Of a DNA stretch of 8,856 bases, positions 2,174 through 7,949 are shown piece after piece. A model generated the notes under the pieces. That model was given only the letters and a program-made list of their open reading frames with translations, was not told where the DNA came from and searched no databases. Position 1 is the stretch's first letter. Each line of letters starts with the position of its first letter. The translations under genes were made by a program, and so were the position numbers. This stretch comes from an uncultured Selenomonadales bacterium. Its GTDB lineage: Bacteria > Bacillota_C > Negativicutes > Selenomonadales > Selenomonadaceae. The stretch covers positions 1 through 8,856 of the forward strand of contig CALCTX010000377.1 of assembly GCA_937907035.1 (NCBI GenBank). The letters run 5' to 3'.

Positions 2174-2181
2174 TTCCTCCT
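2174..2181 (-). promoter_or_regulatory. Ribosome binding site overlapping an upstream stop codon
   Basis: AGGAGGAA lies 7 bases (counted from GGAGG) before the ATG of the NimA-like gene. Its first bases are part of the TAG stop (2182-2180) of the threonine aldolase gene. The overlap fixes the start at 2168 and suggests that ribosomes ending the first gene can reinitiate on the second. Confidence 0.8.
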
Positions 2182-3196
2182 ACAATCGCTCAATCGCTGC
2201 TATCAGAGTCTGAACATCTTCCTCTTTAGTTCCCCAGCTGGTACAAAATCGAGTAAGCTCTCCCATTTCTTCAAATATAAATTCCTTGGCCAACTGTGCT
2301 TTTTGTTCTGCTGTCAAAACTACAAACTGCTGATTCGTCGGGCTCACAACCGCTTCCTTGATCCCCTTTGCCCTAAACGCTGCCTGCAACCGCATTGCCA
2401 ATTCATCAGCCCGACGGGTAATCGTAAAATACAATCCATCTTTAAGCAATGCATAGAACTGTATCCCCAGTAACCAGCCTTTAGCCAGTACCGCCCCATT
2501 TTGTTTCATATAAGTTTTAAATTTCCGTTGCAAATTTTTATCAGTTATTACCAAAGCCTCGCCAAACATACAGCCACACTTGGTCCCACCGATATAAAAC
2601 GCATCCGCCAATGCCGCCAGGTCAGTCAATGTAACATCATTCCCATCAGCTCCTAACCCATACCCCATTCGTGCCCCATCAACAAACAAAATGAGTTTAT
2701 ATTTACGGCAGACCGCCGCAATAGCCTGAAGTTCGGTCAATGAATACAAGGTTCCGAATTCAGTAGGAAACGAAATATAAACAAGACGTGGCTCTGTCAA
2801 ATATTCCGCTTCGCTGTCCTGATAATATTTAGCGGCTTCTCCTTCAATCTGGGCCGCTGTTATTTTTCCGTCAGTATTAGGCAAAGCAATTATTTTATGC
2901 CCGGTATTTTCAATTGAAGCTGCTTCATGAGCATTGATATGACCTGTATCGGCACAAATGACACTTTGGATTGGTGACAATGCAGCGGCAATAACGATCA
3001 GATTTGTCTGTGTTGCCCCGGGTATAAAATGCACTGCGGCTGTTGGTGCTTTTACCAAATCCCTTATCAACTCAGCTGCCTTTTCGCAGCACTCATCCGC
3101 ACCATAACCGGCAAAATTTCCCGCTGCAGATTCTGTCATGATCTTTAAAACAGCTTCATGCGCAGTCTGATTATAATCATTATTAAAGCGTAACAT
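2180..3196 (-). CDS. Threonine aldolase-family PLP enzyme
   Basis: A fold-type I PLP enzyme of the threonine aldolase/beta-eliminating lyase family, expected to split L-threonine or allo-threonine into glycine and acetaldehyde in the cytoplasm. With the start at 3196 it has 338 residues and begins MLRFNNDYNQTAH, the usual N-terminus of the family (FxNDYxxGAH). A longer form from ATG 3217 would add seven residues with a poorer ribosome binding site; the 3196 start has GGGGG at 9 bases and AAAGG at 3 bases upstream. Other marks are FIPGATQTN (58-66) at the cofactor phosphate, CADTGHINAHEA (81-92) with the His that stacks on PLP, FVDGARMG (171-178) with the Asp that holds the pyridine nitrogen, and YIGGTKCG (201-208) with the Schiff-base Lys206. 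It heads an operon with the NimA-like and nitroreductase genes. No clear promoter could be picked out. Some family members act on other beta-hydroxy amino acids, so the exact substrate is open. Confidence 0.9.
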   Translation of the reverse strand: MLRFNNDYNQTAHEAVLKIMTESAAGNFAGYGADECCEKAAELIRDLVKAPTAAVHFIPGATQTNLIVIAAALSPIQSVICADTGHINAHEAASIENTGHKIIALPNTDGKITAAQIEGEAAKYYQDSEAEYLTEPRLVYISFPTEFGTLYSLTELQAIAAVCRKYKLILFVDGARMGYGLGADGNDVTLTDLAALADAFYIGGTKCGCMFGEALVITDKNLQRKFKTYMKQNGAVLAKGWLLGIQFYALLKDGLYFTITRRADELAMRLQAAFRAKGIKEAVVSPTNQQFVVLTAEQKAQLAKEFIFEEMGELTRFCTSWGTKEEDVQTLIAAIERL

Positions 3197-3325
3197 TTTC
3201 CTTTGCCCCCATTGCAAAATTCAATCTTTCCCCAAATTATTTCTCCGTATTTTCCCAAAATCCTCTATTTGCCCATCAATTCTCTTTTTACCGGCAACAA
3301 AGCAAATGTGTGTTTATTTTCGAGC

Positions 3326-3348
3326 AAAAAATAAGAGACCGGCAAATG
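3326..3348 (-). terminator. 3' arm and U-tract ending the small RNA, possibly also the upstream gene
   Basis: The 3' half of the long closing helix (3348-3335) is followed by UUAUUUUUU. No other hairpin with a U-run is seen after the DUF3298-type gene ending at 3509, so this structure may also stop transcripts coming from that gene. The long distance between the two arms (3448-3461 and 3335-3348) makes it an unusual terminator unless the whole RNA folds as a rod. Confidence 0.45.
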
Positions 3349-3473
3349 CCAAAGCCCAACCGACCTTTGAAACATAGTAACCCTCGCCACGTATATCCTC
3401 ATACAAGCAGCACAGTTATAGGTCTCAAAACAGTCGTGACACTTCAACATTCGCCAGTCTCAAAAAACAAAAG
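3326..3473 (-). ncRNA. Candidate structured small RNA, rod-like, 6S-RNA-like layout
   Basis: Read on the - strand, GAGACUGGCGAAUG (3461-3448) pairs with CAUUUGCCGGUCUC (3348-3335), 14 bp without mismatch. The helix continues as UUGAAGU (3447-3441) with GCUUUGG (3355-3349), giving 21 contiguous pairs. A bubble follows, 10 nt (3440-3431) opposite 9 nt (3364-3356), in which CGAC and GUCG could also pair. Next is a 9-bp helix, UUUUGAGAC (3430-3422) with GUUUCAAAG (3373-3365). The apical part can fold GCUGC-UU-GUAU over AUAC-GUGGC. The closing helix is followed at once by UUAUUUUUU (3334-3326), as in a factor-independent terminator. Eight of the 30 main pairs are G-U, which would be A-C mismatches in a + strand transcript, so the - strand is the functional one. 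The 5' end at about 3473 is inferred from a TATAAT box. The closing stem, bubble and apical arm recall 6S RNA, but at about 130-148 nt it is short for that family. I see no SRP, tmRNA, RNase P or riboswitch signature. No convincing protein gene occupies 3197-3508. Confidence 0.6.
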
Positions 3474-3479
3474 CAAATA

Positions 3480-3485
3480 ATTATA
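3480..3485 (-). promoter_or_regulatory. Candidate -10 box for the small RNA
   Basis: A perfect TATAAT (within TATATAAT) reads on the - strand, placing a start near 3473, about 12 bases before the closing helix of the RNA. The -35 region at suitable spacing (about 3503-3508) is ACTTTT and does not resemble TTGACA, so the promoter rests on the -10 box alone. The region is AT-rich, which raises the chance of a random match. Confidence 0.4.
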
Positions 3486-3508
3486 TATCTTTGCTGAGCC
3501 ATAAAAGT

Positions 3509-4294
3509 TTAGATTTGATTTAACAATTGCGGATAGTCAGCATACTTCAATTCGATTATCGAATATCCGGAAGCATACGGCGCGATCACATAAGGCGAGA
3601 AATAGAAATATACACTTTCACCATTTCGGACAAATACAAGCCCAGCCCCGTCTTTATCCGCAAAATCGGCAAAACTCTTTTCTACGTTAAAGCAATATCT
3701 GTCATAGCCAATACGGATTATCTCATTCTTGATTGCCTGACAAAGTTGCGGCACATCATTACAAATATCTTTGACTGTCAACGGATTGCCATTCTTATCC
3801 AAGTTTTCTGCCGAATAAGAATAACTCGGGTGAGCTCCGCCGGCATTCATATAATGATTAAATAATACGCTCAAACCTTGCTGATTCCCCATAACGATAC
3901 TGGCATCGCAGAAATACTGATACGGCATCTGTTCCCGCAATGCATTATTACTAAGATCTTCTTTTGCAGTTTGCGTCAGACTTTTCACAACCTCAATAGC
4001 CTTTTTTTTGCTCTGTTTATTGATTTCTGCCAGCCCGTTAAAAATCCCCTCGCCGACCTGTGTCGTTGTCAATTTCAGTTCCGGAAATTTTCCCTGAACC
4101 AATACTTTCCCGCTTGCTTCGTCAACAGTTTGAAACGAACGAACAGCAAAATACTCCGGTATCATTGCCTCGGTTATCCCCGGTGCATCCAAAAATTGCG
4201 GTACATCTGCAAAAGCACTGCCGCCCGGAGCGATTAAAAATCCTCCCGATACAAGCACTGCCATAAGATTACGTTTCCAATTTCTCATCAGCAT
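3509..4294 (-). CDS. Exported DUF3298/RsiV-like domain protein
   Basis: A 261-residue secreted or periplasmic protein. The N-terminus has basic residues (R4, K7, R8), a hydrophobic core at about 10-23 and an AFA-D junction at 27-30, typical of signal peptidase I cleavage. The mature part matches the pattern of DUF4163/DUF3298 proteins, a fold also found in the extracellular part of the anti-sigma factor RsiV. The marks are GGAHPSYSYSAENLDKNGNPL at 152-172, a switch from the topology-typical 'GGAH...Y...N.D' motif into LTVKDIC at 172-178, and a C-terminal block FYFSPYVIAPYASGYSIIEL at 229-248. RsiV binds lysozyme, but this protein has no transmembrane anchor or sigma-binding part, so no such role can be claimed. 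The ATG at 4294 has GAGGAGGT at 4303-4310, GGAGG lying 9 bases away; the Met at codon 3 is too far. It is the last of a run of - strand genes, 112 bases after comM, and probably has its own promoter. Confidence 0.8.
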   Translation of the reverse strand: MLMRNWKRNLMAVLVSGGFLIAPGGSAFADVPQFLDAPGITEAMIPEYFAVRSFQTVDEASGKVLVQGKFPELKLTTTQVGEGIFNGLAEINKQSKKKAIEVVKSLTQTAKEDLSNNALREQMPYQYFCDASIVMGNQQGLSVLFNHYMNAGGAHPSYSYSAENLDKNGNPLTVKDICNDVPQLCQAIKNEIIRIGYDRYCFNVEKSFADFADKDGAGLVFVRNGESVYFYFSPYVIAPYASGYSIIELKYADYPQLLNQI

Positions 4295-5939: not shown

Positions 5940-5947
5940 TCCTCCCT
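5940..5947 (-). promoter_or_regulatory. Ribosome binding site that supports the TTG start of comM
   Basis: AGGGAGGA directly overlaps the TAG stop (5948-5946) of the preceding membrane-protein gene; the GGAGG core sits 7 bases before the TTG at 5933. The stop and start are in the same frame, 12 bases apart, consistent with reinitiation. Confidence 0.75.
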
Positions 5948-7949
5948 ATTTTGTAAGATATACCTTATAATGCGGTCCTGACACCAAGCGCGGATATTTA
6001 GTCCTTAACGCCCCTTCATTAGTATACAGTCCGTCCCGCGGTGTTACCAAAATCGCTTTTACCTTTTGCACATCAGCAATATAAGCTACTTCTTCAGCAG
6101 AAGGCCCTCCTGCAAAAAACTTTGCTATTGCATCATGTAACTTTATTACCCGATCTACTCCCATACGAACGCCTGATGTTTTCGCATACGAATAATCTCC
6201 CATCGGCGAATAACGACGGGCAAAATAAGAAAAATGATAATTCCCGACAACATCACCTAAAGGCGGATTAAAATCTCCATAAGTATCAGGATTTGATAAC
6301 ACAAAATCCTGTTCGTTTGTATTTTCCCGAATAACCCGCCAACCGTCTATAACTTCGGCATATTCTTTATGCTCTTCATGAGTATTTGCATCCGGCCCGA
6401 AAAATATCAAATCAATTGTCCCGGTAATAAAATAAGCGTCAACCGCAATAAGCAAGGCTGCAAATAAATATGCCGCCGGCTTAGCTTTTATCTTCAGCCG
6501 CTCATATATCTGCAATAACAAAACTGCACCGAAACACATCAGCAAGAAAAATGCCGGATTTGACACCCGCCAGCCAAAATCATTGGAATAAATACTGCTG
6601 TGTACAACAAATATCAATGCCATTATAAACAGAATATAATATTTGCACAGTTTAACAAACCTTATATTCGGCAAAACCCGTGACATCAAGCAGGCTATCA
6701 CGCCAAAACTGTACCCCATGCCAAACCGTATCGGAAACAATACCAAATATACCAAGAATATCAACGGTATCACTTCCGGCAAACCACCATCAAATTTAAT
6801 TTGGGGCATTATCCCCCATCCCAAACTTGCCGATGCTCCTGAATATTTGAGCAGATATCTGAGAAAAACAGCTGATAACCCGACAGCAATAATTATCGCT
6901 CCACCTATATACAAGAGATGCTGATAAACCTCACTGCGAAAATCTTTATCACACACACACATTATCAAAGCCACTACTGCCAACAAAGCTGCCGCAAATC
7001 CCCCGGAATATACCGAACAATGAACCGAAGCTGCTACCGATGTCCCGATGATAAAGGCAAACTTCCATTTATCAATTTTTTCTTTGCTGTCCAGCATTTT
7101 GTCAAACGAAAATATGGCCAATATCACCATCACTGCTGCAACTATATGATGCGGACCCCAGATAGCATTATTCACAAACGACCAGAACCCGAAACTCAGC
7201 GAATTTTTAACAAACAATTCGACAAACGGATGAACTATCCCCTTTTCAAATTTATCAGAAGCACAAATCAACAATAAAAACATCAAACTCTTACTGTTTC
7301 CGCTAAGCCAGACGGTAATCGCTCCTAATGTCATCATCGTTATCCCACAGGTCAAACCGACCACTGTAGTACAAGTAAACAAACAGTCCGTATTAAATGC
7401 CGATACCAATTGTGCCATCAAAACATGAATCCCGAAATGATAAGCCGTAGGGACTAAATTGCCATTATCAGTTACCCACGGTGAATAAAGCGGGAATCCA
7501 TTCTTGACCAGTGAATCGACCATCGCTATTCGCGAATGATCATGAGCCGAAATCGGGAAATACAAGCCACCATCCAACAGATACGGATAAACATCATAAA
7601 TAAGCACTACCGAAAAAAACATTGTCGAAGCCATGAAACTCAAACAATATTTATCGTTAACTATATACAATTTCTTTCGTTGCCAAATAACAAATCCACC
7701 CAGCCCTGCCAAAACAGCGACTGACATTGCCCGATTAAATTGCAATGACATACTCAGAAAATTAATTGACAACATCCAAACTGTGAAACCGACCAGCGGG
7801 GAAATAAGAAAATATACCAGTTTGTCCTTGCCACCGTTTTGTTTTACCAGCGAATCCGGCAATACTGCCAATCCGATTGCCAGACAAAACAGCAATTCAA
7901 CTGCGCCGCAAAAATATGTAAAAACCACTTGTGCCTCAATTTCCGTCAT
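5946..7949 (-). CDS. GT-C-like polytopic membrane protein, putative lipid-linked sugar transferase
   Basis: A 667-residue membrane protein I cannot name. Hydrophobic stretches suggest about 12-14 helices, including roughly 8-30, 44-62, 74-90, 103-120, 190-214, 262-284, 298-334, 345-364, 393-409, 436-452, 466-482 and 491-512. The first large outside loop holds FPISAHDHSRIAMVDSL (131-147), followed by NGFPLYSPW and AYHFGIH (169-175). An acidic residue and His in that loop, then a hydrophobic helical bundle, is the layout of GT-C glycosyltransferases, which move sugars from polyprenyl phosphate onto acceptors outside the membrane. Residues 520-667 form a soluble tail with WRVIRENTNEQDFVLSNP (537-554) and KVKAILVTP (629-637), like the outside domains at the C-termini of such enzymes. 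The neighbouring ArnC-like gene, 46 bases upstream, fits a donor-synthesis partner. The ATG at 7949 follows AAGGTG with 5 bases of spacing. A polymerase or flippase role is possible; the GT-C call is inference from layout. Confidence 0.8.
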   Translation of the reverse strand: MTEIEAQVVFTYFCGAVELLFCLAIGLAVLPDSLVKQNGGKDKLVYFLISPLVGFTVWMLSINFLSMSLQFNRAMSVAVLAGLGGFVIWQRKKLYIVNDKYCLSFMASTMFFSVVLIYDVYPYLLDGGLYFPISAHDHSRIAMVDSLVKNGFPLYSPWVTDNGNLVPTAYHFGIHVLMAQLVSAFNTDCLFTCTTVVGLTCGITMMTLGAITVWLSGNSKSLMFLLLICASDKFEKGIVHPFVELFVKNSLSFGFWSFVNNAIWGPHHIVAAVMVILAIFSFDKMLDSKEKIDKWKFAFIIGTSVAASVHCSVYSGGFAAALLAVVALIMCVCDKDFRSEVYQHLLYIGGAIIIAVGLSAVFLRYLLKYSGASASLGWGIMPQIKFDGGLPEVIPLIFLVYLVLFPIRFGMGYSFGVIACLMSRVLPNIRFVKLCKYYILFIMALIFVVHSSIYSNDFGWRVSNPAFFLLMCFGAVLLLQIYERLKIKAKPAAYLFAALLIAVDAYFITGTIDLIFFGPDANTHEEHKEYAEVIDGWRVIRENTNEQDFVLSNPDTYGDFNPPLGDVVGNYHFSYFARRYSPMGDYSYAKTSGVRMGVDRVIKLHDAIAKFFAGGPSAEEVAYIADVQKVKAILVTPRDGLYTNEGALRTKYPRLVSGPHYKVYLTK

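Follow-up and report, generated by a model that had tools for sequence, protein, structure and literature searches.

A 127-nt strand-specific predicted RNA hairpin between pdaC and an aldolase-like gene of a Selenomonadaceae bacterium: a candidate giant intrinsic terminator rather than a 6S RNA

What kind of element is the long hairpin encoded in the gap between pdaC and the aldolase operon of an uncultured Selenomonadaceae bacterium? The whole stretch of DNA analysed in this study, which we call the window, has 8856 bases. Its minus strand carries, in this order, pdaC (3509-4294, encoding a PdaC/DUF3298-type protein), the gap with the hairpin, a gene for a beta-eliminating lyase or threonine-aldolase-like protein (2180-3196, with the start taken at 3196), a PNPOx-like gene and a nitroreductase-like gene. 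A preliminary description had proposed that the gap encodes a small RNA with a 6S-like architecture, in which a bubble between a long closing stem and an apical arm mimics an open promoter. In this study, we believe that the hairpin is real as a predicted structure and that it is not a 6S RNA, and we give a slight preference to the reading that it closes the pdaC transcript as an unusually large intrinsic terminator.

The 127-nt segment was found again at 3461-3335 of the minus strand, with 14 mismatch-free pairs at its two ends, two of them G-U, and with a helix extending from there to 21 uninterrupted pairs. The minimum-energy fold predicts one nearly continuous rod of 53 pairs (23 A-U, 17 G-C and 13 G-U) with an energy of -60 kcal/mol. 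The outer helix joins the 5' arm at 3441-3461 (nt 1-21) to the 3' arm at 3335-3355 (nt 107-127) and holds 6 of the G-U pairs, and the rod is capped by an apical tetraloop GAGG at 3397-3400 (nt 62-65). The U tract UUAUUUUUU (3334-3326) adjoins the base of the rod directly and is present on one strand only, and a TATAAT lies upstream at 3485-3480, both in accordance with the preliminary description. Recounting the pair list for the 30 pairs named there (21 + 9) gave the same eight G-U pairs. The 10/9-nt bubble, on which the 6S-like architecture depended, did not hold up. Nucleotides 26-30 (3432-3436) and 97-101 (3361-3365) pair mutually in the minimum-energy fold, and this 5-bp helix closes most of the supposed bubble. 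These nucleotides are paired, with any partner, at a probability of 0.81-1.00, a value from prediction and not from probing, and forcing the bubble open costs 6.5 kcal/mol (-54.7 vs -61.2). The widest interruption in the predicted fold is 2/3 nt, and a somewhat looser stretch is predicted at nt 22-25/102-106.

The rod was compared with shuffled sequences. Shuffles of the 160-nt stretch had a mean energy of -34.9 kcal/mol, and none of the 200 was as good as the actual sequence at -61.2 kcal/mol (z -7.7). For the 127-nt rod itself the z-score was -8.1, its fold energy was beyond all 1000 dinucleotide shuffles, and its longest helix had 21 pairs against at most 17 in the same number of such shuffles. 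These results indicate that the predicted rod is genuine and that chance falls far short of explaining it. Among 1542 T-tailed sites from 83 sources (320,966 nt), the rod had the most pairs. A census of U-tailed hairpins of at least 80 nt, in which neighbouring registers and branched hairpins were counted, covered 825,879 nt: the window, one Acidaminococcus massiliensis contig, and 40 stretches of 20 kb (800 kb) from six relatives (G127, G135, G142, G150, G152 and G190). The outer helix of the rod was the longest of the 1107 hairpins obtained, and the runner-up, an 81-nt hairpin in G190, had 15 pairs. By energy per nucleotide, the rod was third of the 100 unbranched census hairpins, after one site in a relative (L402) and one Acidaminococcus palindrome. 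The G190 hairpin (L385, 9938, minus strand) belongs to a near relative, has a U tail and lies directly after a stop codon. It is a smaller version of the design of the rod and shows that hairpins longer than the usual terminators occur in relatives.

The minus strand of the rod has 2.33 times the folding energy of the plus strand, where the same 127 nt reached -25.8 kcal/mol (z -3.3, 300 shuffles), and the numbers of G-U pairs on the two strands were 13 against 1. The preliminary description had taken the G-U asymmetry as a sign of selection on an RNA. The asymmetry itself stands, with 13 G-U to 0 A-C (p 2.4e-4 without bias), but it is weaker as evidence after adjustment for the G+T-rich composition (p 0.027). 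The rod strand contains 64% G+T, and 9% of the 127-nt minus-strand stretches of the window are equally rich, so composition accounts for part of the G-U and strand bias; strand-biased mutation of a transcribed palindrome may be another source. For comparison, the 6S RNAs of 21 relatives folded better in the sense than in the antisense direction in 20 of the 21, with a mean difference of 0.033 and a maximum of 0.079 kcal/mol per nt, against 0.269 for the rod. In G190, a rod that lies within a long coding frame (L385:991) had a bias of 0.263, near that of the window rod, and strand bias alone therefore proves nothing. Because of the G+T richness and this biased rod in a coding frame, we consider the composition-controlled z-scores the better evidence.

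Strand-specific folding also disfavours a plain DNA palindrome, and this bears on the possibility that the rod is a repeated intergenic palindrome of the source species, similar to ERIC or MITE elements, with a U tract by accident. The terminal inverted repeats and the size of about 127 bp would suit such an element, and repeats of this kind exist in the same bacterial class. For example, the genome of Acidaminococcus massiliensis gave 53 matches to a dispersed imperfect palindrome of about 140 bp (69-100% identity, counted as 36 places), and A. fermentans gave 4 matches. Five copies, one of them partial, lie on the contig used in the census (L007) at 6206-6344, 7791-7927, 9242-9384, 13463-13601 and 14850-14953. 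Two copies that were inspected carry AAGACGTCAGA at their 5' end, with a run of T past the 3' end, and the Rfam matches on this contig were tRNAs only. The five copies, however, fold nearly equally well on both strands, with energy ratios of 1.04-1.24 and 2-4 G-U pairs, whereas the strands of the rod are 2.33-fold apart; near-equal folding is what these five copies display and not a formal criterion for repeats. No copy of the rod was found in relatives (189 family and 380 class genomes) or elsewhere in the window. The region lies between two direct copies of the 9-bp sequence AAAGCAAAT (3299-3307 and 3470-3478), which lie off the ends of the rod. These copies are 162 bp apart and may be a target duplication or a chance occurrence in A-rich DNA. 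On the evidence for and against, we regard a dispersed palindromic repeat as an improbable explanation of the rod.

The 6S reading was examined by several routes. A search of the window with 4227 Rfam families gave no match at the gathering score, in agreement with the earlier proposal of an undescribed, RNA-like structure on the minus strand. The 6S family RF00013 was absent from 3200-3560 even at E<=10, where three weak non-6S Rfam matches were seen. In 24 relatives, by contrast, RF00013 matched at E<=1 in 21, with 19 over the cut-off, elsewhere in the genome; the matches spanned 173-182 nt in 20 of the 21, against 127 nt for the rod. A lineage covariance model built from the 6S sequences of 19 relatives recognised two held-out relatives at 118 and 148 bits, but on this stretch it gave at most 2.1 bits, on the plus strand, and nothing on the minus strand up to E 10. 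The best score of this model in the whole window was 8.4 bits, outside this stretch and at background level. Together with the mostly paired central bubble, the Rfam search, the survey of ordinary 6S RNAs in 24 relatives and the lineage model led us to reject the rod as a 6S RNA. What could be said for a divergent or second 6S RNA, binding RNA polymerase as a mimic of an open promoter, is the rod shape with a long closing stem, an apical arm and the looser stretch noted above. Shortness by itself would not exclude it, because truncated forms of B. subtilis 6S-1 RNA that have two short arms are active in vitro with about 10-fold lower affinity, according to the available text of PMC8876501. We nevertheless consider this identity extremely improbable, and an unrelated second RNA with a 6S-like mode of action found no support. 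Literature searches on 6S RNA in Negativicutes and on small RNA in Selenomonas brought up no such RNA by title among the matches listed; PMC8632094 and PMC6429828 are surveys of bacterial ncRNAs that mention Negativicutes in the text available.

A segment under selection as an RNA might have conserved relatives, as the preliminary description had it, and none were found in the genomes searched. Blastn gave no homologue in 189 family genomes, where the matches at E<=0.1, seen in 19 genomes, were only 17-35 nt long, and none in 380 genomes of the class, where 2 had a match at E<=0.001; 299 Lachnospiraceae genomes gave 0 matches. The best blastn match (L034) falls within a long open frame and was rejected. 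Another (L336) lies just past an open frame, in an apparent short terminator that has about 25 nt in common with the rod. A single-sequence covariance model produced only weak matches, in 1 of 189 genomes (31 nt) and in 2 of 21 (91 and 36 nt). One site from this search (L441) falls within a long open frame; the sequence at the end of its contig (G011:C30) resembles what we take to be a Nextera/Tn5 adapter, and this assembly may carry adapter remains. The negative results with blastn and the covariance model are weak because the initial pass was loose and there was no known positive. The rod had no match in phages and plasmids. Two 14-base patterns occurred in at least 120 stretches each of viral contigs, and they are too short and were taken as chance.

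These searches weigh on the idea that the rod is a stand-alone small regulatory RNA of about 140 nt, transcribed from the TATAAT at 3485-3480 to the U tract and acting by base pairing or protein binding. Such a gene would be consistent with a structure that is compact, specific to one strand and equipped with its own putative terminator, and with the suitable distance of the TATAAT. The TATAAT, however, has no recognisable -35 partner, and a promoter scan, which covers sigma-70-type sites only, found 0 promoter-like sites in 3150-3700, a region that takes in the gap between pdaC and the aldolase-like gene, against 1.5 expected in shuffles. Neither blastn in the 189 and 380 genomes, which are overlapping sets, nor the single-sequence covariance model revealed a homologue. 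Moreover, nearly all bases of the rod are predicted to be paired, so that few would be available to pair with a target. We therefore hold this gene to be a possible but doubtful reading, the strongest of those we set below the terminator.

Another test named in the preliminary description was whether the segment is part of a decayed coding gene. One frame of the 3' arm, with 33 stop-free residues, resembles part of a protein of about 235 aa in G190, G138 and G142, a membrane protein which we take to be PssA, so that the arm could be a remnant of a PssA-like gene. The best alignment has 15 of 31 residues identical, with E 0.026-0.045 for one genome. The three hits, however, represent one orthologous gene, the matches in G050 and G128 (of 28 genomes) fall elsewhere at E 0.18-0.87, and across the 28 genomes E is near 0.7, about the level of chance. 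The next-best PssA piece in the window, at another place, has E 0.10, and neither the 33-residue frame nor a 61-aa ORF over the rod has a Pfam match. A coding remnant would also leave the 21-bp outer helix at the U tract unexplained. One short PssA-like match thus exists, but it does not rise above chance across the genomes, and we consider a decayed gene very unlikely.

The neighbouring genes were also compared with those of relatives. The best ComM match of the window is 75% identical among 189 Selenomonadaceae genomes, 187 of which have a ComM match, and among the groups compared the source bacterium is nearest to this family. PdaC has matches of 24-36% identity in 18 of the 189 family genomes, and in a database of 5.8 billion proteins only one cluster, of 12 sequences with 99% identity, matches it at E<=1e-10. 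The 61-aa ORF matches only one database cluster, which is 100% identical and comes from 6 contigs. These two clusters show that near-identical strains are represented in public data. The aldolase-like protein has a homologue in 53 of the 189 family genomes, with 43-53% identity among the matches listed, and is 60-66% identical to homologues of Lachnospiraceae, Megasphaera and Acidaminococcus in the eight best rows. Since the aldolase is nearer to these than to its own family, the surroundings look mosaic, and sequence comparison suggests that the gene was transferred horizontally. We folded 41 aldolase upstream regions (30 of the 53 family homologues and L001-L011 of 17 loci), and none had a comparable rod. 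The best unbranched U-tailed hairpin in them had -45.1 kcal/mol, branched ones reached -73.7 (L425), and the longest outer helix had 16 pairs, in a 41-nt hairpin (L432). At 5946-7949 the window also encodes a 667-aa protein, of membrane type by sequence and with no Pfam match, beside a family-2 glycosyltransferase.

We believe, with somewhat more confidence than doubt, that the rod is a giant intrinsic-terminator hairpin which closes the pdaC transcript and is possibly released as a 3'-UTR RNA. A same-strand stop codon, that of pdaC, lies 47 nt before the rod, and the stable predicted hairpin, with its closing pair 3461/3335, is followed by the U tract 3334-3326 as an intrinsic-terminator tail. 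In a simple scan of 3150-3700, the only terminator-like site found was a short local hairpin of 5 bp at 3352-3339, within the 3' arm of the rod and between the co-directional genes. The following course is what we infer from the predicted fold and its strand specificity, together with the U tract and the location of the rod. RNA polymerase coming from pdaC on the minus strand would copy the 5' arm, the apical loop and then the 3' arm. Starting at the loop, the rod would zip up towards its base, where the last pairs would close with the polymerase on UUAUUUUUU; this would release the transcript and separate it from the aldolase operon. The stable rod would then stay as the 3' end of the pdaC mRNA and act as a barrier to exonucleases. 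It would also be a likely substrate of RNase III, whose cleavage could yield an RNA of about 130 nt.

The U tract itself lies about 180 nt past the pdaC stop codon, against medians of 37-91 nt in the available part of PMC12207403. Several observations stand against the terminator. The TransTermHP-based criterion of that paper has an upper limit of 59 nt for the stem-loop, and the 127-nt rod is over twice as long; in most of the species compared there, Streptomyces and E. faecalis excepted, the median hairpin has 20-28 stem nt. PMC8355165, as far as its text is available, also treats terminators. The rod is third and not first by energy per nucleotide among the 100 unbranched hairpins, no homologue was found among the genomes searched, and composition explains part of the strand bias. 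It is also conceivable, though improbable, that the rod is a new lineage-restricted structured RNA, an almost entirely double-stranded, one-strand rod of about 130 nt from the pdaC 3' UTR with a job of its own. Beyond ending transcription, the released rod could, for example, serve as a substrate for RNase III, act as a sponge for proteins or regulate the aldolase operon.

Should the rod indeed end transcripts, it would show that intrinsic terminators can exceed twice the size limit of a common criterion, and sites of this kind would therefore be missed when genomes are annotated. Should it also be set free as a stable RNA, Selenomonadaceae would have a new 3'-UTR RNA. As a repeat or a one-off, the rod would be nothing unusual. 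The clear negative result for 6S prevents a false member of that family from entering the records.

Studies have described three kinds of elements that resemble the rod in part. 6S RNA (RF00013), about 200 nt long with a relatively unstructured central bubble according to the available text of PMC8876501, is likewise rod-shaped with a long closing stem and an apical arm. The rod differs from it in having no open central bubble and no sequence match, and in its length of 127 nt against mostly 173-182 nt. The repeats of the ERIC, MITE and REPIN type are treated in PMC3116915, whose available part gives about 100-400 bp for MITEs. The rod is similarly an imperfect intergenic palindrome within the MITE size range, whereas it folds well on one strand only, with no repetition seen. 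Compared with the canonical intrinsic (Rho-independent) terminator, the rod is far larger, with 127 nt, 53 pairs and a predicted -60 kcal/mol against at most 59 nt and median energies of -16.8 to -13.3 kcal/mol outside Streptomyces in the available part of PMC12207403. It shares with this terminator the hairpin followed by a U tract, the place downstream of a same-strand gene, and the restriction to one direction.
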